47,647 nucleotides of DNA from a virus, in the IMG/VR virus record IMGVR_UViG_3300046642_000522, positions 1-47,647 of that record; one strand, written 5' to 3'. The position numbers and the translations under genes were made by a program. Positions 1,929-47,421 of this stretch are shown here, piece by piece. Below the pieces are notes generated by a model that was not told where the DNA came from, did no database searches, and saw only the letters and a list, made by a program, of their open reading frames with translations. The first letter of the stretch is position 1. Each line of letters begins with the position of its first letter.

Positions 1929-2233
1929 ATACTCGCCTTAGTCGGTTCGTCGAATGTCAACTGACGATTCATCTTGGGCCGTGGAGCCCGTGCTGCTTTC
2001 GGCGGGACGAACACCGGCTCAGCATTCCGCCAGGGATATAGGGTGCCCGTTTCGGCGCAGTAGTCGGCCCGCATGGCACCTGGCCCGTGTTCGTAGCCGC
2101 AGAATCCATAGGGCTTGCGATTGGAGTTGCAACGGCCACAGCGATGGTCGGGAAGCTCGCCAGCAGGCACAGTCTCTTCGGGCATGACCGTCTGAGCCCA
2201 TTGGCTGAAACAGCTCATCGGTTCTTCGCTCAT
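1925..2233 (-). CDS. Small zinc-binding hypothetical protein
   Basis: 102 residues from ATG 2233, which overlaps the stop of the CAP-domain gene as ATGA; a longer start at 2266 is less likely. Residues around HRCGRCNSNRKPYGFCGY give a CxxC...C cluster with a further Cys in MRADYCAETG, a probable metal site. The C-terminus is basic and proline-rich. Function unknown; one of about eight small Cys-rich proteins in this genome. Confidence 0.7.
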   Translation of the reverse strand: MSEEPMSCFSQWAQTVMPEETVPAGELPDHRCGRCNSNRKPYGFCGYEHGPGAMRADYCAETGTLYPWRNAEPVFVPPKAARAPRPKMNRQLTFDEPTKASI

Positions 2234-3165
2234 CGTCCAGTGCTCGCGCACGTTGGCGGAAGACAAACGGTTCCTGTTCCCGCCACTGCGCCACCTGATG
2301 TGCTCGTTCCACCAGGCAACGTGCTAGCGGGCGCACCACCACTTGACGAATTACCGCCCGTACTTGCAGGTGACCCCGATGAGGGAACAACTGGAATCGT
2401 CGAGCCACAGAGCGGAGGGATGCACTGCACGACACCGCCCGTACCGCTTCCACCACTTGGCGTGGTGAAACCCGTCGAACCGCAGAGCGGGGGCAGGCAG
2501 GCCGGCTGAGGCGCAGGGCTCGGTGTGCCACCGCCACCGCCTGTTGAGCCACAAAGCGGCGGCAGGCACGGACCTGGCTGCGGGTTAGGCACTGGTACGG
2601 GATTCGGACCAGGCTGTGGATTCGGCTGAGGCTGAACGCCGCTCACAGTCGCAAAGTCGCAAGTCCAGCTCTGGAATCCTGCAAATCCTAAGTAGGTTCC
2701 CGTGGCATAGCCACAGCCGAGCGAATTGCCTCCACCGACAATAATCGCCCAGTGCTCAGAACTATTCACAAATTGCTGTAGCGTGGCCGCTGCACTCGTT
2801 CCAGCGCCGTTGCCCGCCGCAATCTCTCCGACAAAGTTTCCCGCCCCGCAGCTAGAGAACAAGGAGAACGTCAGGCTCGCGTTGTGCGTCCCAGGCTGCC
2901 CTGCCGCTGCACGGTCAGCCGCTACCTGGCTCGCAACACAGGTAACCGAAGCCGTGATGACAAGTGGCGGTAGGCCTTGCTGCTGCCGGTATTGGTTTAT
3001 GAGCGTCGCCAAATCGCCTGGTGCGGCCTGGGAGTCTAAAGGCGGCAGTGGGGTCGCAGCCTCCGCCATTCTGATTATTACGACGAACGAGAACATTCCG
3101 ACGAGCACAGTGTAGGCAAAGAGCGCCGTTATCAGCGCTATCCCAGCCGTCTTTAGTCGAAACAT
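2230..3165 (-). CDS. Secreted/anchored CAP-domain (SCP-like) protein with cysteine decapeptide repeats
   Basis: 311 residues; ATG 3165 with AGGAGG 6 bases upstream. An N-terminal transmembrane or signal segment (about 7-33) leads to a CAP/SCP domain (about 45-170): INQYRQQQGLPPL, then GTHNASLTF, VGEIAAGNG and SSEHWAIIVG supply the His/Glu/His positions of the family. A Pro/Gly-rich tail carries four copies of C-[LI]-P-P-x-C-[GA]-S-T separated by Gly/Ser/Pro linkers. CAP proteins act outside the cell; whether this one is an enzyme or a binding module is not known. A second CAP protein lies at 35268..36278. Confidence 0.75.
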   Translation of the reverse strand: MFRLKTAGIALITALFAYTVLVGMFSFVVIIRMAEAATPLPPLDSQAAPGDLATLINQYRQQQGLPPLVITASVTCVASQVAADRAAAGQPGTHNASLTFSLFSSCGAGNFVGEIAAGNGAGTSAAATLQQFVNSSEHWAIIVGGGNSLGCGYATGTYLGFAGFQSWTCDFATVSGVQPQPNPQPGPNPVPVPNPQPGPCLPPLCGSTGGGGGTPSPAPQPACLPPLCGSTGFTTPSGGSGTGGVVQCIPPLCGSTIPVVPSSGSPASTGGNSSSGGAPASTLPGGTSTSGGAVAGTGTVCLPPTCASTGR

Positions 3166-6969: not shown

Positions 6970-7244
6970 ATGGACGCGCAGCCGTACGGACAGAACCTCG
7001 GGCCTTCCATCGGCCGGAGCGTCCTACGCCCACAACCGCGGCAGAGGGTTGCTGCTCCAGCAAAGACCCAGCCCTTCAATGTCAGTGTTGCCGCACGGGT
7101 TTTAACGGTCGTCCCAACTTGGGACGACCATCCCTGACATGTTGCGCACTGTTGCGGCAATCGGTTCTGGGCGATAACGGTCCAGGTCCGATCGCAGTTG
7201 TCGCAGTACGCCGTATATCCCTCCTCGTCAATAAATCGAATCAC
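6966..7244 (-). CDS. Small double zinc-ribbon protein
   Basis: 92 residues from GTG 7244 (GGAGGAG site), overlapping the previous stop as GTGA. Two Cys pairs near the N-terminus (YCDNCDRTW and QCATCQGW) and two near the C-terminus (LCRGCGRR and FCPYGC) suggest two zinc ribbons. The gene contains one copy of the palindrome described at 7107..7129. Function unknown; probably nucleic-acid binding. Confidence 0.75.
   Translation of the reverse strand: MIRFIDEEGYTAYCDNCDRTWTVIAQNRLPQQCATCQGWSSQVGTTVKTRAATLTLKGWVFAGAATLCRGCGRRTLRPMEGPRFCPYGCASI
7107..7129. repeat. Palindrome copy 1 (core CGTCCCAACTTGGGACG)
   Basis: Perfect 11-bp arms around a single central base; the 17-bp core matches the copies at 15597, 27031 (one mismatch) and 34027. 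This copy is inside the coding sequence of the zinc-ribbon protein, encoding SSQVGTT. Confidence 0.85.
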
Positions 7245-14154: not shown

Positions 14155-14189
14155 AAGATGGCTGAGAACCAAAAGCTCTCAGCCATCTT
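14155..14189 (-). terminator. Intrinsic terminator
   Basis: Perfect 13-bp arms (AAGATGGCTGAGA and complement) with a 9-base loop; the minus-strand RNA continues UUUAUUU. It follows the gene at 14213..14491 and precedes the ribosome site of the EXORDIUM-like gene. Confidence 0.8.
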
Positions 14190-15596: not shown

Positions 15597-15613
15597 CGTC
15601 CCAACTTGGGACG
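15597..15613. promoter_or_regulatory. Palindrome copy 2 upstream of 15281..15580
   Basis: CGTCCCAACTTGGGACG, perfect around one central base, ends 16 bases before the ATG at 15580. A TATACT box (15629..15624 on the minus strand) lies just upstream, so the palindrome would overlap the start of a transcript; a good -35 box is missing. Confidence 0.6.
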
Positions 15614-27024: not shown

Positions 27025-27312
27025 CTACACCGTCCCATCTTGGGACGATTCGTTGGCGTGGCGATGCATCCAGTCCTTAATCCAGGCCTTCATCTCGTCG
27101 GTCTTCTCGAGCGTCGCCGCCTTTCGCTGGCTGCAGCCGCAATTCTTGAAGACCGGCGCCTCGGACGGCATCATGTTGACTCCAGCCTGCGCAGCCTCAA
27201 TGGCCTTGAGCGAGGCTTCCGCGGCAGCCGCCTGGATGGCGCTGCGACCGGCGGCGATACGCTCGCGGCTCTCACGAAGGAGCTGCTCGACTCTGCTTTC
27301 TACTGCATCCAT
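27025..27312 (-). CDS. Small charged coiled-coil protein
   Basis: 95 residues from ATG 27312. Residues 1-45 are an Ala/Glu/Arg-rich helix (VEQLLRESRERIAAGRSAIQ), followed by FKNCGCSQRK, a CxC motif, and a second helix (TDEMKAWIKDWMHRHANE). The last codons contain palindrome copy 3. Function unknown. Confidence 0.6.
   Translation of the reverse strand: MDAVESRVEQLLRESRERIAAGRSAIQAAAAEASLKAIEAAQAGVNMMPSEAPVFKNCGCSQRKAATLEKTDEMKAWIKDWMHRHANESSQDGTV
27031..27047. repeat. Palindrome copy 3 (one mismatch)
   Basis: CGTCCCATCTTGGGACG; 7-bp arms intact, with A to T change next to the centre relative to the other copies. It spans the end of 27025..27312 and lies 9 bases upstream of the start of 26605..27021. 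Confidence 0.75.
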
Positions 27313-34024: not shown

Positions 34025-34045
34025 GGCGTCCCAAGTTGGGACGCC
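34025..34045. promoter_or_regulatory. Palindrome copy 4 upstream of the major tail protein
   Basis: Ten-bp perfect arms around one central base with core CGTCCCAAGTTGGGACG (34027..34043). It lies in the short gap between the tail completion gene and the major tail protein, immediately before the ribosome site. As RNA it could form an 8-bp hairpin with a 5-base loop. Confidence 0.7.
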
Positions 34046-35267: not shown

Positions 35268-36278
35268 TCAAGGGCAGGCTATGAGACTCCCCTGTGCCAG
35301 AGCTCCATTCAGGAAGTATGCCTGCCGGCAGACGTTCGGCTGAGGCGTCGGTGATGGTGTGGGCGTGGGCTGATTGCCTACGGTGACGGACACCGATCTT
35401 GAAGGAGATATCTGCCCCGTCGCTCCATCGCCAACCCACGCGGCAGCGCCATAGGTGCCAGCTGATGTGTATGTGTGAGAGAACACATGCCCCTGCTGCC
35501 AGTTCGCCGAGGTGCCGTCCCCATAGGCCACGGCGTAATACGGAACTGTCGCCTGTCCAGTGATGGTGAACGTCGCGGTCAGGCCGGTCCCGCTCAGCGA
35601 AACAGTCGGTGCCACGAGCCCGGTCGGAGATGGAGTTGGCGTCGGTGTCGGTGTTCGCGTGGGCGTCGGCTGTGGCGTCGGCGTCGACGGGTCCGCCGTC
35701 GACGCGAAGGTCATTGTGTTCATCCAGAAGTTCGGCCAGGTCGTCGTGCCGTCGTTGTAAATGCCCTCTTCGAAGGAGACTCCGACCGAGACCATGTTCG
35801 CGTCGAGCAGGTTGGCGAGGTGCGGTGGGCTATTGACGTACTGATTGAATGTCGCGGTCGGGTCACCGGACCCGTTGCCGGCGATATTCTCGTCGATGCT
35901 CTGCGTCGGGCTCCCGCAGTTCTGCGTGCGGGCCAGCGTTGCACCGTAGCTGTCATGCGCAAAGACGCCTGTGCTGGCCATTTGCAGGGAGTGGGTGTCG
36001 GCGCTGCGCTCGAGGCTGGGCGATACCGATAAGGCGGGAACGCCGTGGCTGGCACGTAGTTGGTTCGTCATATCAATGACGGCCTGCTCGTTCGCGTTCG
36101 GTGTCGAATGCGAAGAGCCGCACACGGTCGTCTCTCGAGTGCTGGCCGCTGCCGAGAGCGGTGGGCCGACAACGGATGGCGCAGCAGTCTGCCCCACATG
36201 CCCCTGCGAGAAGGCGATGTGCGGAGCCAGCACCATCACAAACGCCAACAACGCAAACAGCGGAATTAGCTTCTTCAT
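35268..36278 (-). CDS. Secreted CAP-domain protein with PKD-like domain
   Basis: 336 residues from ATG 36278, overlapping the connector stop as ATGA. Signal peptide MKKLIPLFALLAFVMVLAPH (cut after about residue 25), then a CAP domain (about 55-190): MTNQLRASHGVPALSVSPSL, FAHDSYGATL, IDENIAGNG and NSPPHLANLLDANMVSVGV give the His-Glu-Glu-His set complete. A TPTPQPTPTRTPTPTPTPSP linker is followed by a PKD-like domain (AVAYGDGTSANWQQGHVFSH, TYTSAGTYGAAAWVGDG), then a second Pro linker and a short Cys-containing end. An exported protein within the neck genes is striking; host envelope or extracellular action is inferred. Confidence 0.8.
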   Translation of the reverse strand: MKKLIPLFALLAFVMVLAPHIAFSQGHVGQTAAPSVVGPPLSAAASTRETTVCGSSHSTPNANEQAVIDMTNQLRASHGVPALSVSPSLERSADTHSLQMASTGVFAHDSYGATLARTQNCGSPTQSIDENIAGNGSGDPTATFNQYVNSPPHLANLLDANMVSVGVSFEEGIYNDGTTTWPNFWMNTMTFASTADPSTPTPQPTPTRTPTPTPTPSPTGLVAPTVSLSGTGLTATFTITGQATVPYYAVAYGDGTSANWQQGHVFSHTYTSAGTYGAAAWVGDGATGQISPSRSVSVTVGNQPTPTPSPTPQPNVCRQAYFLNGALAQGSLIACP

Positions 36279-36655
36279 TCGATAACGGACCCGAGCCATC
36301 TCTCCGTCGCTCCATAGGTCATCGGGTCTTGCCGAGCTTCAATGCGAATCGTGAGTCCTGGCAAGACCACGAGATCCTCGATATGCACGTCGATAGGCGA
36401 GCCGACCACAATAGATGGATCGATGAAGTCGATGACCCAGCGGCTATGCGCCTCAACCCTGTCGACGTATTCGCCCAGCTCAGCCGGCATACGGTACGGA
36501 CTAACGTGCGTTGGAACATCTGTGGCGTAGGTCACCGGCGCCTGAGTACGACCGCCCATATTGTCGGAAGTGCTGGATGGACGCTGAAGCGTGGCACGGT
36601 CCCTGAGAAACCTGGAGGCCCGGCGAGCCGCATGGTCCTGATGTGGAAGCGTCAT
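36275..36655 (-). CDS. Head-tail connector / head closure protein
   Basis: 126 residues; ATG 36655 overlaps the upstream stop as ATGA. FLRDRATLQRPSSTSDNMGG then TYATDVPTHVSPYRM and a C-terminal strand set (LPGLTIRIEARQDPMTYGAT) match the small beta-barrel head closure proteins (SPP1 gp16/HK97 gp7 type) found at this position. Closes the portal channel after packaging. Confidence 0.68.
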   Translation of the reverse strand: MTLPHQDHAARRASRFLRDRATLQRPSSTSDNMGGRTQAPVTYATDVPTHVSPYRMPAELGEYVDRVEAHSRWVIDFIDPSIVVGSPIDVHIEDLVVLPGLTIRIEARQDPMTYGATERWLGSVIE

Positions 36656-37948: not shown

Positions 37949-39175
37949 CTATGCGTTGACGTTGAGGGTCTTGACGGCGAACTGATCGAAGACGTCGTAG
38001 CCCTCAACCTCTGAGAGGGTGATGACCTGCGTCTGCCGCTTGATCCACTTATCGACTTCGCTGATCTCGCTGCCGATTTCGACCACACGCTCAATCGCCC
38101 ACTGGCGGTCGAACCCGATGATCTTGAGCGACGGCGCCGCAGTGGTATGGCCGACGCGAACACTATCAGCCAAGCCAGGATTGATTGGAGCAAATGAGCC
38201 GTAGGTGCTTGCCGGCAGGAATGCCAGCGGGATATTGGCGCTGCCAGCGTTCAGAAGCTCCAACTGCAGGTAGACGTCATCCTGGACGATGGCATGGGTG
38301 ATGCTGTACGGATTGACGAACTTCAGCTTGAACGCGAGCCAGGCCTTGAGGGTCAAGGTGCCCGCAGTCGCGCCAGTATCGAGCGCGGTCAAGTTGTAAT
38401 TCGTCGCGGCCGTATTGGCGTTGCCGTCACCGTTCAGCATGATGTCGAGAATGGCGGCCAGCTTATTGATCTCGGTCCGAAGGGCGATACGTGCCAGGTG
38501 GAGCGCCACGAGGTCGATTCGGCGGCGCCGCATCTCTTCGTAGGTGAGCTCAATGGCCCTGCCGTATTTCTTCAGCCTGATGGTGTGGTCACCGCCGGTC
38601 AGCTTCGCCGTCGGGAGATCGGTTCCTTCAGGAACGCGGACCAGTGTCTCCTGGTCTGCCGCGTCCGTCAGGTAGAAGGCTCGGTAGTCCTGGCCTTCAA
38701 TCGGGCTCGTGATGGCGATCACTTCGCTGATCGGGATGGCCGGCTGAAGCTGGAAGTATCGCGCCTGCGCCGCGTCGACGTAGGGGCGCATGACGGACCC
38801 TGGCGGGAACTGGTCAGACGTGTATATGGCGCGTTGACCGCCATACTTCACACGCCGAGCGACCCGTGCTGCCCATTCAGGGACCATAGCGCGAGCGTTG
38901 GGGTCTTTCTCGAAGGCTTCGTAGGGGGAAGCCCACCGGCCGCTCTCATAGTCCGGGTTCTGGATGATGCCAGCAACCCGCATCATGCGGCTGAAGGCGT
39001 CGAGCCCGTCTTCGGTCGGGTCTTCGTCCTCGAGGAAGGCCGAGAGGCTCTGGCCGGAGTTATACGCCTCGCGATACAGACGGCCGTCGTGCATTCGCTC
39101 GAACAGGTCGCCGACACTCGTGCGCATTGCATCGAGTGGCCCGGCCCGGTGCTGGTCTTCTCTTAGAGCTACCAC
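37949..39175 (-). CDS. Major capsid protein (HK97 fold)
   Basis: 408 residues. Signature stretches include DYRAFYLTDAADQETLVRVP then TAKLTGGDHTIRLKKYGRAI (spine/E-loop region), YEEMRRRRIDLVALHLARIA, and a C-terminal domain with PSLKIIGFDRQWAIERVVEI. Preceded by the prohead protease and decoration genes and of standard length. Forms the icosahedral shell; the first 100 residues may be a delta-domain scaffold removed by the protease. Confidence 0.85.
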   Translation of the reverse strand: MVALREDQHRAGPLDAMRTSVGDLFERMHDGRLYREAYNSGQSLSAFLEDEDPTEDGLDAFSRMMRVAGIIQNPDYESGRWASPYEAFEKDPNARAMVPEWAARVARRVKYGGQRAIYTSDQFPPGSVMRPYVDAAQARYFQLQPAIPISEVIAITSPIEGQDYRAFYLTDAADQETLVRVPEGTDLPTAKLTGGDHTIRLKKYGRAIELTYEEMRRRRIDLVALHLARIALRTEINKLAAILDIMLNGDGNANTAATNYNLTALDTGATAGTLTLKAWLAFKLKFVNPYSITHAIVQDDVYLQLELLNAGSANIPLAFLPASTYGSFAPINPGLADSVRVGHTTAAPSLKIIGFDRQWAIERVVEIGSEISEVDKWIKRQTQVITLSEVEGYDVFDQFAVKTLNVNA

Positions 39176-41759: not shown

Positions 41760-42093
41760 GCGGCTGCTCCTGTTGAGTCCCAAATGGCGCACCGAGCTTC
41801 TCGAGCTCTCGCGCATCCTCGAAAGCCTGGAGGTAGTTGGTATAGATGACAAGGAAATCAGCGAGGTCGAGCCACGGCAGCTTCGCCCATTCCGTCGGCG
41901 GCAGACGGTGTCGCATCACGTATAGCTGCGCATCAACGAGCTGGCCGTGGGCCGCGGCGATGGCGACGTTATCGGACTGTGGCTGCTGAGACAGCTCGAC
42001 GTAGTTATGGAGGGCATTCGCCAGGTCGCCGTAGTCGATAAGTTCGGCGATCTTGGCCGCTCTGGTATGGAACTGGAAGCTAGATAGGTTCAC
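41752..42093 (-). CDS. Hypothetical head-module protein
   Basis: 113 residues from GTG 42093, where AGGAG has ideal 5-base spacing; the frame is open far upstream but that part is shadow of the zinc-ribbon gene. Helical throughout (HTRAAKIAELIDYGDLANAL, WLDLADFLVIYTNYLQAFED). It resembles small accessory proteins between portal and protease genes; no family recognised. Confidence 0.65.
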   Translation of the reverse strand: MNLSSFQFHTRAAKIAELIDYGDLANALHNYVELSQQPQSDNVAIAAAHGQLVDAQLYVMRHRLPPTEWAKLPWLDLADFLVIYTNYLQAFEDARELEKLGAPFGTQQEQPHG

Positions 42094-42277
42094 CACGTCT
42101 CCTATCGTCGTCACGCGATCGGCGCAAGTCGCCTTCTGTAGGCCTTGCGGTCTTGCCGGGCCTACGTGCTGGCCCCTTGAATGACAGCTCGGTGCCGCAG
42201 ATACGGCAGAAACGGTCGGCTCCTGTGGGGACAGTCGATCCACAATTGCTGCAGGTAGTCGGGGATGCTGCACTCAT
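42080..42277 (-). CDS. Small zinc-ribbon protein
   Basis: 65 residues; ATG 42277 overlaps the portal stop as ATGA. TTCSNCGSTVPTGADRFCRI then CGTEL is a complete double-CxxC zinc ribbon, followed by a very basic tail (RRPGKTARPTEGDLRRSRDD then DRRRGEP). A nucleic-acid contact is likely; role in packaging or regulation is open. Confidence 0.75.
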   Translation of the reverse strand: MSAASPTTCSNCGSTVPTGADRFCRICGTELSFKGPARRPGKTARPTEGDLRRSRDDDRRRGEPI

Positions 42278-43824
42278 CGCGTACCGACCAGTGAAACGAT
42301 GTTGCCGCCGTCTCCGATGGGTTCTGAATTGCCGGTGCTCGGCTCCTCGTTCGGCGGCAGGCCACCACCGCCTTCGCCCACCGCTGGCTGGTCGGTGACC
42401 GGATAAACGCGAGGCTCCGGCTGATCGGGAGGATGACCAACGGACTTCATCGAAGCCTCCTCCTGGCTGGTGTAGCCTCGGTCGTACTCCATCGCGTTAT
42501 TCTGCAGCTTGAGCCCACGCGCCTGCTCGTCCCTGAGCGCCTGCGTGGCCCGCAGCTGACCGAACGTGGTGACGACCTTGGCCTGAATGCCCTGGGCCCG
42601 AAGCGCCAGTTGCTTCTGGGCGCTGATCATGGCCGCGGCGAGCTTTTGCAGCGATGCCAAGCCGGAGACCTGAATCTCCCACTGCCGGTTTGCGTTGGCT
42701 TCGCTCGACCCGTCGGTGAGCGCCATCATGATCGGCATGCTCTTGATCGCACGAACGGACTGCCGCTCGAGCACCTCGATGATGGAAGAGATGCCGCCAA
42801 TGGAGCGGGCGTCGACGGTGCCGACGGGGCCACTCACCTCGATGGCGTCCATGTGGATATAGGCGTCATCGGGCTCGAGCTGCGCGTACTTGGCCGCAAT
42901 CTCCTTCATGGTCAGGTCGATCCATTCCTTCGACTTGGCCGGAGACATGCGCACCTCGGCGGGCATCAGGCCCATAAGCGCCTGGAGGTTGACCGTAATG
43001 GAGATGCGGGGGTAGCCCTGCTGGCCGATGACGCGGCGCATGTCGTGCAGCAGCGTGAGCAGGAACAGCGTTGGGAAGAGCGCCGGGCCCAACATTGGCC
43101 GGCCGTAGGGAACACCCGGCATCGGATCGATTGGCACATAGCGAATCGTCGGCCTGGCCATTGGCACAAAGCCGCCAAACTCAACCGTCTGGTTCGACAG
43201 AGGATATTGGAACTGACCCAGCACCCAGACCGGACCGCGAATGGGGTCGTACTCGCGCTTGAACCGGAAGGTGGACGGGTCGGGCGTCACGTAGTCGATT
43301 GGCAGACGGCCATTGGCATCGAGCACGAGCTCTGAGCACATGGCGCCGCGCATGAATGCCTGAATGAAGTGCTCGTTCCAGACGCGGTCCGGCGAGCCGT
43401 ACATATTGCCGAGATGTTGGTCGAAGGCGTCGAGCGCTCGCTGTGCCTCTGGGTGCGGCTCGTTGGTATCGACGACGAACGCCTGCGAGGTGACGGACGG
43501 ATTGCACATCCTGGTCAAGTCCCAGAGCGCCTTCGAGCAGTCCGGGCTCAGGTCGACCAGCCAGTCGAGGATTTGATTGATGGGAAAGCGGCGCAGCGTC
43601 TGCTCGTCGGCGCGAAAGAACTCCCAGGCCCCCTCCGCATTGGATGGCGGCAGGATGATGGGCAGCGTCGGCATTTGCTGCGGGAAGTCGCGAGAGAGTC
43701 GTCCGGGAGACAGGACGGTAAGAACGCCCGCTGATTCGGCCAGCTCGAGAGCCAGTTGCGGTGTCGGTGTAGGATTTGCGGTCGCCCGCTCGTCCTCGGC
43801 AGGCGCTGTGCGCTTACGCGGCAA
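42274..43824 (-). CDS. Portal protein
   Basis: 516 residues from TTG 43824. It contains DLSPDCSKALWDLTRMCNPS, GSPDRVWNEHFIQAFMRGAM, PVWVLGQFQYPLSN, the long helix region RQSVRAIKSMPIMMALTDGS, and a Gly/Pro/Ser-rich C-terminus, matching siphoviral portals. Forms the dodecameric ring at one capsid vertex for DNA entry and exit. The TTG start has no ribosome site within the usual distance but sits 7 bases after a perfect hairpin (see the leader entry). Confidence 0.88.
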   Translation of the reverse strand: MPRKRTAPAEDERATANPTPTPQLALELAESAGVLTVLSPGRLSRDFPQQMPTLPIILPPSNAEGAWEFFRADEQTLRRFPINQILDWLVDLSPDCSKALWDLTRMCNPSVTSQAFVVDTNEPHPEAQRALDAFDQHLGNMYGSPDRVWNEHFIQAFMRGAMCSELVLDANGRLPIDYVTPDPSTFRFKREYDPIRGPVWVLGQFQYPLSNQTVEFGGFVPMARPTIRYVPIDPMPGVPYGRPMLGPALFPTLFLLTLLHDMRRVIGQQGYPRISITVNLQALMGLMPAEVRMSPAKSKEWIDLTMKEIAAKYAQLEPDDAYIHMDAIEVSGPVGTVDARSIGGISSIIEVLERQSVRAIKSMPIMMALTDGSSEANANRQWEIQVSGLASLQKLAAAMISAQKQLALRAQGIQAKVVTTFGQLRATQALRDEQARGLKLQNNAMEYDRGYTSQEEASMKSVGHPPDQPEPRVYPVTDQPAVGEGGGGLPPNEEPSTGNSEPIGDGGNIVSLVGTR

Positions 43825-43921
43825 CGATTATCCGTTGGCGCTCCCAACGGAAATTGGGGAGCTTGGTTAGCGCAGCGCTGGCGTCCAGACGCACGCCGAA
43901 GGGGTTAGCGGCCTGATTGCA
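43825..43921 (-). promoter_or_regulatory. Structured 5' leader of the portal gene with competing hairpins
   Basis: In the minus-strand RNA a stem CCGUUGG-GAGCG-CCAACGG (43832..43850, perfect 7-bp arms) ends 7 bases before the start codon. An alternative stem GCUCCC(C)AA ... UUGGGAGC (43840..43862) uses the same bases and cannot form at the same time. A further GGCGU...ACGCC and AGCGC/GCGCU pairing lies upstream. It is a candidate cis-acting switch. Confidence 0.45.
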
Positions 43922-43949
43922 ACTATACAGTGCATCCGCGTACTGTCGA
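43922..43949 (-). promoter_or_regulatory. Candidate sigma70-type promoter for the portal operon
   Basis: Minus-strand TCGACA (43949..43944) and TATAGT (43927..43922) each match five of six consensus bases with a 16-bp spacer. A transcript would begin near 43915 and have a leader of about 90 bases. It is the best-matching promoter in the window. Confidence 0.6.
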
Positions 43950-43959
43950 TAGCGCGAAG

Positions 43960-44115
43960 CTAGGGGATGGGCAGCGCCGTCGCTGCGAAGAACGCCAGGC
44001 CGAGATAGAGCAACGCGGCCACCACTTGCGGTGGAACACCCTGCCCAACGATGACGAGGAGAAAGTCAACGGCGAAGCAGACAATCGCAACGATGGCAAA
44101 GATGACTCGGAACAT
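43960..44115 (-). CDS. Small two-span membrane protein
   Basis: 51 residues. ATG 44115 has GAGG 6 bases upstream, within the end of the preceding gene. It consists of two hydrophobic segments (FRVIFAIVAIVCFAVDFLLV and VVAALLYLGLAFFAATAL) joined by IVGQGVPPQ, with nearly no tails. Such a hairpin is compatible with a class II holin-like or exclusion protein, but it sits beside the portal gene, far from the endolysin. Confidence 0.6.
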   Translation of the reverse strand: MFRVIFAIVAIVCFAVDFLLVIVGQGVPPQVVAALLYLGLAFFAATALPIP

Positions 44116-44116
44116 G

Positions 44117-44344
44117 CTATTCCTCAACTTCCTTTAGGTCTGCAGGGTCGACCGCCATGGCATCGACATGCGTCATTCCCTGAAAGACCTGAAGCCGTCC
44201 ACACTTGGTACAGACACAGGTTGTGGACGGCTCATCGGGAAAGACGGACACCTCGCTCACGGCCTTACCCGCGCCGATAGCAGGGTCGAGCGTCCAGAGG
44301 CGCTTGAGGACGCCATCACAGTAGCTACAGCGGAGCTCTTCCAT
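44117..44344 (-). CDS. Small zinc-ribbon protein
   Basis: 75 residues from ATG 44344 with GGAG 6 bases upstream. ELRCSYCDGVLKRLW at the N-terminus and TCVCTKCGRLQVFQG further on form a CxxC...CxxC ribbon. The tail is acidic (DPADLKEVEE). Function unknown; lies in a cluster of small genes between terminase and portal. Confidence 0.7.
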   Translation of the reverse strand: MEELRCSYCDGVLKRLWTLDPAIGAGKAVSEVSVFPDEPSTTCVCTKCGRLQVFQGMTHVDAMAVDPADLKEVEE

Positions 44345-44404
44345 ACTCGACTCCGCAATCAACACTAGCAGACAGACGTTCATCGATCAGTCGAATTTCG
44401 CTGT

Positions 44405-44596
44405 TCAGGGACGAACAAATGTTGGCGGCAGCATGACTAAGCCACCTTCAACCATAGCCGGAGCAATTACATGCCATAAACCGTCGGCGCCGAGGGCATA
44501 CCGATACTTGCAATAGTCGCAGAGGTTACCGGCTGCACTTCGCGCAAAGGATTGGCCACAGCAGTCACAAGTTCGTTGTCTTAGTGCTGGTTCCAT
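44405..44596 (-). CDS. Small zinc-finger protein
   Basis: 63 residues. RTCDCCGQSFARSAAGNLCD then YCKYRYALG gives CxxC and CxxC, a compact treble-clef-like finger, followed by a hydrophobic C-terminus (VIAPAMVEGGLVMLPPTF). Weak ribosome site; starts 2 bases after the preceding stop codon begins. Function unknown. No gene is seen in 44345..44404. Confidence 0.6.
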   Translation of the reverse strand: MEPALRQRTCDCCGQSFARSAAGNLCDYCKYRYALGADGLWHVIAPAMVEGGLVMLPPTFVRP

Positions 44597-44597
44597 C

Positions 44598-44810
44598 TCA
44601 GTCTAGACGGGCGTCAGCGGAATCACGGCGAAGCCGAATATCATCGAGCACGAGCTTTGTATTCGCTCGAATATCGCGCAGTGTCCTGCATCCAGGATCA
44701 GAACACTCGTGGATCGCTAACCCTTCTTCGACCCATCCAGCCCATTTGAGCAACGCATCCCGCTCAGCGCGAATCTGCTCTATTGGCTCTACTGGTTCTA
44801 CAGCGCTCAT
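44598..44810 (-). CDS. Small helical protein
   Basis: 70 residues; ATG 44810 overlaps the previous stop as ATGA. Two helices (EPIEQIRAERDALLKWAGWV, TLRDIRANTKLVLDDIRLRR) flank a CSDPGC pair. It resembles the small helical accessory proteins at the left end (118..483, 566..916) in style only. Confidence 0.65.
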   Translation of the reverse strand: MSAVEPVEPIEQIRAERDALLKWAGWVEEGLAIHECSDPGCRTLRDIRANTKLVLDDIRLRRDSADARLD

Positions 44811-45187
44811 AACTGCGTGTCCATTTCGACCACACTAGCAGACGAGCTTTGCCGTCTGGATATCGTTTCACTGGCCAAGGTCTCAAGCGGTCCAGACATG
44901 AGCTCCTCGAGCGCCTCGGCCCAACCAACATTTACCTCCACGCCTGTCGAGCTATACAGACGCACAAAGACGGGAACTCCTCCGCTATCGACCTTCCCAA
45001 CCTGTATGTAGTTCCAGTGGCGATCCACCAGAACATCGTCAACCTCGGCGACCCAATCGTTCCCCAGATGGACGCAGCGGGCCACCTTCAGAACGAAGAA
45101 CCGGTGCAGGCACTCAAGCCTCTGATTTGGCTGCCTGTTCAGGATCGACGGGCCCCACTCGTGGTCGGTCCACTGTTCCGTTACCAT
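44807..45187 (-). CDS. Hypothetical protein downstream of the large terminase
   Basis: 126 residues; ATG 45187 overlaps the end of terL by 7 bases. Mixed alpha/beta: CLHRFFVLKVARCVHLGNDW, RHWNYIQVGKVDSGGVPVFV. No family recognised. Coupling to terL hints at a packaging or head role. Confidence 0.65.
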   Translation of the reverse strand: MVTEQWTDHEWGPSILNRQPNQRLECLHRFFVLKVARCVHLGNDWVAEVDDVLVDRHWNYIQVGKVDSGGVPVFVRLYSSTGVEVNVGWAEALEELMSGPLETLASETISRRQSSSASVVEMDTQL

Positions 45188-46545
45188 CCCTTGGCTCTCC
45201 CAGTCGCTAGCGACAAAAATGACGTGTTCGTGTCGATGAACGTGAGACCCCAGACCAACGCGTCGATCAGGTCCAGCCGCTCTACCTCAACCGGAAAGCT
45301 GGTCATCTGGTCCTCAAGGTCGCTGAAGATGCCATTGTGATGCACGAGATGCTGCTCATAGAGCGCGGCAATGGGCTCAGCCCTGATTGCCTTGCCGCGA
45401 CTGGCATGGACCTGCTCAAACGGCAGCCCGCCCCACAATCCCAGCTCCCCTGACAGCCCAGCGTCGTTCCAGGCGTTCGTCAGCGTGGCCTCGACCATGT
45501 CGCCCCCATAGTTGCTCTCGGCGACGATCTTCTCAGCCTGATACCTTGCCCACTTCCGTATGGCGCTCTGCGCCCAGGCGTTTGGCGACCACAATGCCGC
45601 TTCAGCATCCAGAACGTAGCGGTGCCCGTCGTACCCGTACCCAACAACGACAATGGCCGTCATGGCCGACTGGCGGTTCATCGTTCCCCCTGGGTCGATG
45701 GCGACGATGACCCGCGATAGCTGCGGCAGGAGATCCTCCACGGGAATGCTGCGCCGGTAGGTGTCGATCCAGTCGTATTCCCACATGGCGCCCTCCACGG
45801 CCGGAGGGTCCATCGCGAGCATCTCCATCCTCGCAAGGCGGGTGTCCTTGCCGAACATGGCCTCCCACTGGGCTATCCTCGCCGGCGGGAGCTTGGTGTT
45901 GTCATACGTGGTGGCATGGACGGCCCTAGTGGTGTCGTAGCCCTTGATCTGCTTGATGAGCGCCGAGCGCTTCGGTGTCGTTGTCACCACGGCCCGCGGC
46001 CAGTCGCCCTCTCTGAGGCAGAACTGCGCCATCTCCCAGCTGGTGCCGCCGTGTGTTCCCTTGGCATTGCTCCACAGCGACAGCTCGTCGGCCCACAGGA
46101 GCCCAAACCCCGGTCCGTTCCACCTATCCGGTTCCTCAGAGCCCAGGAAGCGCACGTAGCCGCCTCCCTTGTGGAACGCCTGCCGGTCTGAGCGGTGCCA
46201 CTCAAACTCGCTGGGCGCAGCCGTTATGAGCCCGGACGGACCCTCAGCGCAGATGTCCCGCGCATCGTCCCTCGTCGGCGCCCCAATGTAGATTCGCGCC
46301 GCTGGCCCCATCTCCCGCAGATACCTCAGGCAGTACCGTGAGCCGGTCCAGGTCTTCCCAGCACCACGGCCTCCCTCGAGCAGCCAGATGGCCCAGTCGC
46401 GGTCGTCCGGATTCAGGTCTTCCGGCGGTATCTGGTAGTCGTGCGGCTCCCCTGCGGCCGGCGGCTCCTTCTCGTCCTGTTCCAGTGAGCTCCAGGCAAT
46501 GATGGCTGCACGCCGGGCACGCTCCTGCTTGTCAAGCCTCGCCAT
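45181..46545 (-). CDS. terL: Terminase large subunit
   Basis: 454 residues. The ATPase has Walker A GGRGAGKT (about 58-65) and Walker B LLWADE (about 149-154) with a following TTTP coupling motif near 188-191. The RNase H-like nuclease has VAIDPGG (Asp284), AESNYGGD near 345 and DLIDALVW near 430, its three acidic sites. It docks on the portal, drives DNA into the head and cuts the concatemer. Confidence 0.95.
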   Translation of the reverse strand: MARLDKQERARRAAIIAWSSLEQDEKEPPAAGEPHDYQIPPEDLNPDDRDWAIWLLEGGRGAGKTWTGSRYCLRYLREMGPAARIYIGAPTRDDARDICAEGPSGLITAAPSEFEWHRSDRQAFHKGGGYVRFLGSEEPDRWNGPGFGLLWADELSLWSNAKGTHGGTSWEMAQFCLREGDWPRAVVTTTPKRSALIKQIKGYDTTRAVHATTYDNTKLPPARIAQWEAMFGKDTRLARMEMLAMDPPAVEGAMWEYDWIDTYRRSIPVEDLLPQLSRVIVAIDPGGTMNRQSAMTAIVVVGYGYDGHRYVLDAEAALWSPNAWAQSAIRKWARYQAEKIVAESNYGGDMVEATLTNAWNDAGLSGELGLWGGLPFEQVHASRGKAIRAEPIAALYEQHLVHHNGIFSDLEDQMTSFPVEVERLDLIDALVWGLTFIDTNTSFLSLATGRAKGW

Positions 46546-46550
46546 CTACT

Positions 46551-46613
46551 TCACCATCGGCGCAGCGAAACCCGTGTTTTCGGAGGCTTTTGCCTCCTTT
46601 CGGTGAAGTTCAT
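46551..46613 (-). CDS. Possible 20-residue basic peptide between terS and terL
   Basis: ATG 46613 shares a base with the terS stop (TGATG) and the frame ends 5 bases before the terL start. It encodes MNFTERRQKPPKTRVSLRRW. A GGAGGC-AAAA-GCCTCC hairpin (46582..46597) lies inside. It may be a translated spacer that carries ribosomes to terL, whose own site (GGTGAAG) is weak. Confidence 0.25.
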   Translation of the reverse strand: MNFTERRQKPPKTRVSLRRW

Positions 46614-47152
46614 CAGTCGTCCAGCGTCCGGTAGACCTTCTTCGCCTCGATGTACATCTGCTCCATGCGCTCCGGCGGCAACCCCTTCTCCCTGGCAATG
46701 ATCTCCACCTGCTCCCTCAAGGTCACCTTCAGGTCAAACGTGTCCCGCCTCGAGTAACGCTCAGGCCTCGTTCTCTCAAGCCACCACGCCCACGCCTGCC
46801 AGCTCGTCTCGCCGGCCTTCCTGATGTTCATCACCGCAACGCTCTCCGCAATCGCCTGCGCCTCGTTGATGTCCTCCAGGAACGACTCGAACGGCTCCTC
46901 TCCCCGAGCACCCCTCCGCATCCAGTTGTAGAGCGTCTTGTTAGCAATCCTCGCCCCAGCCGCTGCAATGAAGATGTAGTTCCCAGCCCTCACCAGGTCC
47001 AGAATCTTCTTCGCCTTCACCTGGTCGAACTTGTCCTCGTACATCCGAGTGGGCGCACGCTTGTGCGCCATCTGCTCGAAGTCCTGGTACGTCAGCTGCC
47101 CAACGACATCCGTCTCGTCTAAGACCTCATCCGGCTCCAATGCCTCGCTCAA
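46613..47152 (-). CDS. terS: Terminase small subunit
   Basis: 179 residues from TTG 47152, chosen because GGAGG lies 6 bases upstream and the start overlaps the previous stop as TTGA; the frame is open to 47404 but that part is the shadow of 47149..47349. The HTH region (KILDLVRAGNYIFIAAAGAR then IANKTLYNWMRRG) binds packaging sites, and the central and C-terminal helices (INEAQAIAESVAVMNIRKAG, AWWLERTRPERYSRRD) match phage small terminases. Recognises phage DNA and hands it to TerL. Confidence 0.85.
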   Translation of the reverse strand: MSEALEPDEVLDETDVVGQLTYQDFEQMAHKRAPTRMYEDKFDQVKAKKILDLVRAGNYIFIAAAGARIANKTLYNWMRRGARGEEPFESFLEDINEAQAIAESVAVMNIRKAGETSWQAWAWWLERTRPERYSRRDTFDLKVTLREQVEIIAREKGLPPERMEQMYIEAKKVYRTLDD

Positions 47153-47349
47153 TGTGCCCCTCCGTTCGCCCGCCGGTATGCAGCCTTGTTGCACTTGATT
47201 GAACAGTACGTCGCCCGCGCCGATCTCCTGTTCACCTGCCCACATCCTGGACACAGCGGCCGGTCCCTTCCAGGTACGAAGGCCTTGTACTCCCTCGGTG
47301 GCTGCACGTTGCTCCGTAGCGTCCTTTTCTTCAGCTCGCTCATGCCCAT
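47149..47349 (-). CDS. Small zinc-finger protein, first gene of the packaging block
   Basis: 66 residues from ATG 47349 (or ATG 47343); no ribosome site is visible at either. PLCPGCGQVNRRSARATYCS then IKCNKAAYRR is a CxxC...CxxxC finger very like the knuckles at the end of the RusA fusion. Translation is coupled to terS through TTGA. Likely DNA-binding; perhaps a packaging accessory. Confidence 0.65.
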   Translation of the reverse strand: MGMSELKKRTLRSNVQPPREYKAFVPGRDRPLCPGCGQVNRRSARATYCSIKCNKAAYRRANGGAH

Positions 47350-47369
47350 AAGTTAACCACGATTTCGAA

Positions 47370-47391
47370 AAGGCTGTATCATGCCAGCCTT
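47370..47391 (-). terminator. Intrinsic terminator before the packaging block
   Basis: AAGGCTG and CAGCCTT form a perfect 7-bp stem with an 8-base loop; on the minus strand UUUUC follows. It would stop transcripts arriving from the early block (or the right edge) before the packaging genes. Confidence 0.65.
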
Positions 47392-47421
47392 CTGCTATAA
47401 TCACGCGCCCGCACGCGGAGG

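Follow-up and report, generated by a model that had tools for sequence, protein, structure and literature searches.

A structured leader before the portal gene of a soil phage, with a possible inhibitory role in translation

Organization of the portal locus

The sequence analyzed, called the window below, is the entire 47,647-base virus record IMGVR_UViG_3300046642_000522, whose source virus is described as a soil phage. The portal leader is located on its minus strand, and the genes and features considered here are the following.

46613-47404: terminase small subunit, upstream of the portal gene
45181-46545: terminase large subunit (terL), upstream of the portal gene
43960..45187, minus strand: five small ORFs (126, 70, 63, 88, and about 51 aa) between terL and portal in the window clade
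43960..44115, minus strand: small hydrophobic ORF (MFRVIFAIVAIVC...), ATG at 44115 and stop at 43960, directly upstream of the leader
43825..43959, minus strand: intergenic leader of 135 nt, from the small membrane-protein-like ORF to the portal gene
43922..43949, minus strand: promoter-like TCGACA-16-TATAGT, with the same hexamers in the 93% identical relative and a frequency equal to chance
43840..43862, minus strand: stem B, GCTCCC (43862-43857) with GGGAGC (43845-43840), 6 bp, -9.6 kcal/mol alone
43831..43851, minus strand: stem A, TCCGTTGG-GAGCG-CCAACGGA, perfect arms of 8 bp, -12.6 kcal/mol alone
43841..43845, minus strand: GGGAG, Shine-Dalgarno (SD)-like, 16 nt from the TTG and within stems A and B
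43822..43837, minus strand: stem C, CAACG (43837-43833)-GATAAT-CGTTG (43826-43822), 5 bp, including the TTG start codon
42274..43824, minus strand: portal protein gene, 516 aa, TTG start at 43824
37949-39175: major head protein, downstream of the portal gene, with tail genes

The portal protein matches phrog_3753 (E 1.4e-33) and aligns with homologous portals, and its TTG at 43824 is the sole ATG, GTG, or TTG ahead of about residue 55. Of the small ORFs upstream of the portal gene, those of 63 and 88 aa carry CxxC pairs, and a 65-aa ORF after the portal gene (42080-42277) has zinc-ribbon domain matches slightly below the cut-off. Elsewhere in the window, CAP (cysteine-rich secretory protein) domains occur in two genes (2230-3165 and 35268-36299), the latter also having a PKD domain. 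A perfect hairpin of 13 bp with a T-rich tail after it (14155-14189, minus strand) lies upstream of an ATG with AGGAG, and by its appearance would be an ordinary terminator.

Promoter, ribosome site, and stems

The preliminary description of the leader had reported a good promoter, a leader of about 90 bases, two mutually exclusive stems, and a TTG start lacking a ribosome site in the normal window. The promoter-like sequence is present at 43949-43922 (minus strand), but its quality is that of a chance match, since sites with at least 10 of 12 matching positions number 2 in the whole window vs. 1.64 expected, and 2 vs. 1.9 in a local scan. The distance from the likely transcript start to the TTG at 43824 is indeed about 90 bases. 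The two stems are exclusive as described, and the perfect 7-bp arms extend to 8 bp by an extra T-A pair. A third stem, C, was absent from that description. Stem A excludes both B and C, which are compatible with each other; A and C are mutually exclusive because CGTTG flanks CAACG on both sides.

The GGGAG motif lies, as previously noted, inside the competing stems and at 16 nt is too far from the TTG to serve as a normal ribosome site, but a weak GGA 6 nt upstream of the portal TTG makes the claim of no site slightly too strong. A strong SD precedes many other genes of this genome, which counts for an inhibitory structure at the portal start, while starts without a clear SD also occur elsewhere, e.g., at terL, and this counts against it.

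A scan of the leader (43825-43959, minus strand) gave no terminator-like site, which leaves the earlier suggestion of antitermination unsupported; a transcription attenuator was rejected likewise, for want of a terminator hairpin with a T run in the leader. Rfam gave no matches at the gathering score and none up to E 1 in 43700-44000. A known riboswitch, of which the preliminary description had recognized no class, or another Rfam family was rejected for want of a covariance-model match.

Predicted folding of the start region

In a fold from -60 to +40, the UUG has an unpaired probability of 0.01, tied lowest among 34 gene starts and in favor of an inhibitory structure, but by the energy needed to open it, the start region comes only 11th among the 34, which counts against such a structure. 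These 34 starts were our own choice, with the small ORF entered at 44118 or 44117 and its true ATG at 44115. Stems B and C dominate in the fold from -95 to +21 (the outer pairs of B at 0.95, and four of the five pairs of C at 0.97-0.99), and with 21 coding bases the window haplotype gives 0.95 for B and 0.98 for C. Folding of the leader only favors A (lowest-pair probability 0.66), which also reaches 0.55-0.57 in the window haplotype from -91 to +45 and from -91 to +90, counting against an inhibitory structure. The folded state therefore varies with the modelled RNA end, as A gains at +45 and +90 in this haplotype. In the relative L012 (93% identical to the window), B and C have 0.91-0.96 at +60 and +90 and A has 0.67 at +45, so that a single state is dominant at most modelled lengths.

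The 91-nt leader alone is no better folded than shuffles (z -0.82), which counts against an inhibitory structure; the stem-plus-start region (z -2.1 to -2.3) and a 141-nt stretch (z -2.45) are somewhat better folded than shuffles. In the predicted states, the pairing partners of the 16 nt that separate GGGAG from the TTG lie outside that interval. Temperature had been proposed as a possible signal, but the computed start codon does not melt consistently from 20 to 55 C: it is unpaired at 0.40 or less at 20, 37, and 55 C, and the value decreases with heat at some lengths. An RNA thermometer was rejected for the same reason, the start region not opening with temperature in computed folds.

Conservation within the clade

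A portal query identified four IMG/VR contigs of the window clade. Three of them have the leader letter for letter as in the window (in L002 the match starts at base 44117), and the fourth (L005/L012) is 93% identical to the window. An exact 22-mer of the stem occurs in IMG/VR only in the four known contigs, and the leader is known in two sequence versions, that of the window clade and that of the 93% relative. These two sequences agree at every base of the arms of all three stems; consequently no pair in A, B, or C varies between the haplotypes or is informative on selection for pairing, which counts against an inhibitory structure.

Compared with L012, the leader shows 11 differences in 135 positions as aligned (P 2e-4 against four-fold sites), or 6 in 134 when a shift of GCTCCC is treated as one insertion and one deletion. 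Among 650 four-fold sites taken from seven genes, 127 differ (19.5%), a total that includes a poorly aligned 126-aa ORF (97 of 370 sites differing). The last 30 noncoding bases before the TTG have no differences from L012 (P 0.0015), which counts for an inhibitory structure. Against it stands a control gap before terL (46546-46612), which differs at 6 of 67 positions, about the rate of the leader; a second control gap (44384-44404) differs at 9 of 21. The leader is therefore constrained, but not uniquely so, because the gap before terL is about as conserved. In the small hydrophobic ORF (43960..44115), differences are chiefly at third codon positions.

Portal genes of wider relatives

A query with a 111-aa portal stretch detected 12 IMG/VR loci, four of them the window clade, and one contig of an Anaerolineae metagenome-assembled genome (MAG); a query with the major head protein added further loci. 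Portal identity in the wider relatives is 39-44% (10 of 11 records matching). Portal starts were examined, as chosen by us, at eight loci (L100, L101, L102, L103, L104, L106, L107, and L112), of which L104 and L106 show the same printed start region. At seven of the eight, the portal begins within -16 to +19 bases of an ORF of 452-608 aa and has no leader of the window type; the eighth, L101, is outside this count, as its upstream ORF possibly extends beyond the contig end. The ORF of 452-608 aa is presumably terL; tblastn with the TerL of the window gave no match at these loci.

The portal start codon as chosen is ATG in all eight loci, and SD-like sequences were recognized by eye in five (L101, L102, L103, L107, and L112), the other three having no clear one. 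In L107, an 8-bp hairpin ends 12 bases before the ATG, within the upstream ORF, and is followed by an ordinary SD. Among other loci, L122 has a gap of 95 bases before the portal and an ATG with GGGGAG, L099 has an unclear portal start, and L105 is cut off. In four annotated phages, the distance from the preceding gene to the portal is 12, 61, 18, and -1 bases. The preliminary description had named a different portal start with a standard ribosome site in relatives as evidence against its proposal, and this is what relatives of 39-44% identity have with the starts as chosen: ATG, usually an ordinary ribosome site, and no leader. As far as seen, the long leader is specific to the window clade, since relatives are without it at seven of the eight loci examined, and the arrangement would be at best lineage-specific.

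A portal relative in L099/L124 (42% identity) has an in-frame TAG inside the matched stretch, for which a pseudogene, a sequencing error, or recoding are possible readings. The Anaerolineae MAG (L107) is the sole GTDB genome matching the portal stretch, a hint of Chloroflexota as the host group; GTDB genomes searched with the full portal protein yielded nothing useful. In terL-like viral records, phrog_3753 was found in none of 20, and the control likewise had no match.

Inverted repeats and chance expectations

The window contains 12 perfect inverted repeats of at least 8 bp vs. a mean of 6.6 expected. Exclusive pairs of 8-bp and 6-bp stems, similar to A and B, number 3 vs. 0.65 per strand expected, and at least one such pair is found in 45% of Markov shuffles of the length of the window. 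The combination of A and B is not uncommon for this genome. The geometry of A, B, and C over a start is found at 1 of the 34 chosen starts, which counts for an inhibitory structure, at 0.02% to 0.28% of 9,504 sampled minus-strand positions (five threshold sets), and, with the strictest thresholds, in none of 3000 shuffles at the start. As the thresholds were fitted after the case was seen, this rarity is suggestive only.

A different palindrome, CGTCCCAA[C/G]TTGGGACG (17 bp), is repeated at 7110-7126, 15597-15613, 27031-27047, and 34027-34043, with three copies exact and one having one mismatch. Four copies compare with 0.31 expected, and this number was reached in none of 100 shuffles. Three copies precede minus-strand starts by 9-16 bases: ATG 34011 (a tail-sheath-like gene), ATG 15580, and GTG 27021. 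The palindrome is present in the clade contigs L092, L093, L133, and L134 and absent from 11 distant relatives searched. It is probably an operator or a shared leader hairpin.

Possible roles of the leader

The leader feature is present in the sequence, and its effect is probably modest. The tentatively preferred explanation, held with somewhat less than even confidence, is a lineage-specific, cis-acting inhibitory leader that lowers portal translation. Transcription would start from the local promoter at 43949-43922, and the portal start region would be held in local hairpins under either folding. In the state with B and C the UUG would be paired and GGGAG buried, and in the A state the weak GGA and part of GGGAG would be paired. 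Structure, UUG start, and poor SD may together result in low portal synthesis. Only about a dozen portal copies are needed per head, and far fewer must be made than of the major capsid protein; a low output would suit this small need. Damping fits better than on/off control because neither state leaves a good ribosome site open. The earlier proposal of translational control by structure is accordingly plausible, given a UUG computed to be nearly always paired and a leader conserved above four-fold sites, but the term switch goes beyond what is established.

The leader could also be a GC-rich sequence whose hairpins are without a role, with the portal start merely weak. The frequency of exclusive stem pairs in Markov shuffles, the chance-level promoter, the z of the 91-nt leader, and the relatives devoid of the leader all speak for this, but conservation above four-fold sites and the absence of the three-stem geometry at the start in 3000 shuffles, with thresholds set post hoc, do not, and chance structure is considered somewhat unlikely. 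A regulated bistable switch is a less likely reading, in which a phage protein (the portal or another one), an RNA, or the speed of transcription would shift the leader between A (start free) and B with C (start paired). It agrees with the exclusion of B and C by A, with the retention of every arm in the 93% relative, and with computed occupancies that move from 0.66 for A in the leader only to 0.95-0.98 for B and C at +21 and to about half of each at +45 and +90 in the window; because occupancy shifts in this way with modelled length, A and B with C are close in energy. Yet the arms are invariant across the two leaders and uninformative on covariation, the inducer is only hypothetical, the SD-like bases are still paired in state A, Rfam has no match, and L012 favors B and C at +60 and +90, so the balance is not kept. 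More doubtful still is a three-stem bistable leader, A against B and C, which would be thrown by a phage factor and would time portal synthesis and the start of head assembly in one lineage.

At the DNA level, the 21-bp interrupted palindrome at 43831-43851, downstream of the promoter, might be an operator for a DNA-binding protein. The 17-bp palindrome at gene starts makes operators at such places plausible in this phage, but stem A has no second copy among the 12 perfect inverted repeats, and its 8-bp half site has only four occurrences, of which the hairpin accounts for two; such an operator is very improbable. No more credit can be given to coupling with an upstream frame, in which case part of the leader would be coding in relatives. 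By eye in the alignment, an ATG frame of 35 codons in L012 ends with TAA 3 nt before the TTG, a geometry of re-initiation, but the same frame stops after 22 codons in the window, and its ATG is inside the promoter and therefore off the proposed transcript. This reading is judged the least probable. A conserved leader peptide was rejected, as the frame is broken in the window.

Relation to known phage systems

The inhibitory translation initiation structures of T4 genes e, soc, 49, and I-TevI (PMC3014915) are a precedent for such a leader. The gene e type resembles the window leader in having a phage mRNA start codon, SD, or both hidden in a local helix, and in being confined to close relatives. 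For the window leader the local helix is a computed one and is weaker in some longer folds. In T4 gene e the long early transcript is inhibited and the short late transcript is free (PMC3014915), whereas here the only proposed promoter is upstream of all stems and repression is what we infer.

Lambda cIII mRNA has two exclusive conformations around a phage start region, with a reportedly temperature-dependent equilibrium (PMC4166951). The window leader likewise has two exclusive conformations of similar computed energy, but without a consistent computed effect of temperature. The split initiation region of T4 genes 25/38 shares an SD-like sequence that is too distant, a hairpin nearby, and restriction to a lineage; its hairpin, however, lies between SD and start and shortens the distance, whereas in the window leader the start codon or the SD-like bases are themselves part of the stems (PMC3014915 for T4). 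The gene 25 type was rejected for the leader, which has no spacing-shortening hairpin between SD and start. The T4 gp43 and gp32 translational operators also have structured RNA upstream of a phage start, but with a known binding protein (PMC3014915), while a protein effector of the window leader, such as the head protein proposed in the preliminary description, is hypothetical.

A literature search of open papers found no RNA-level control of a portal gene. A true switch would make the leader a simple model of how portal dosage is set, whereas a leader that only dampens translation would add one more lineage-specific case to the inhibitory starts familiar from T4 for a long time.
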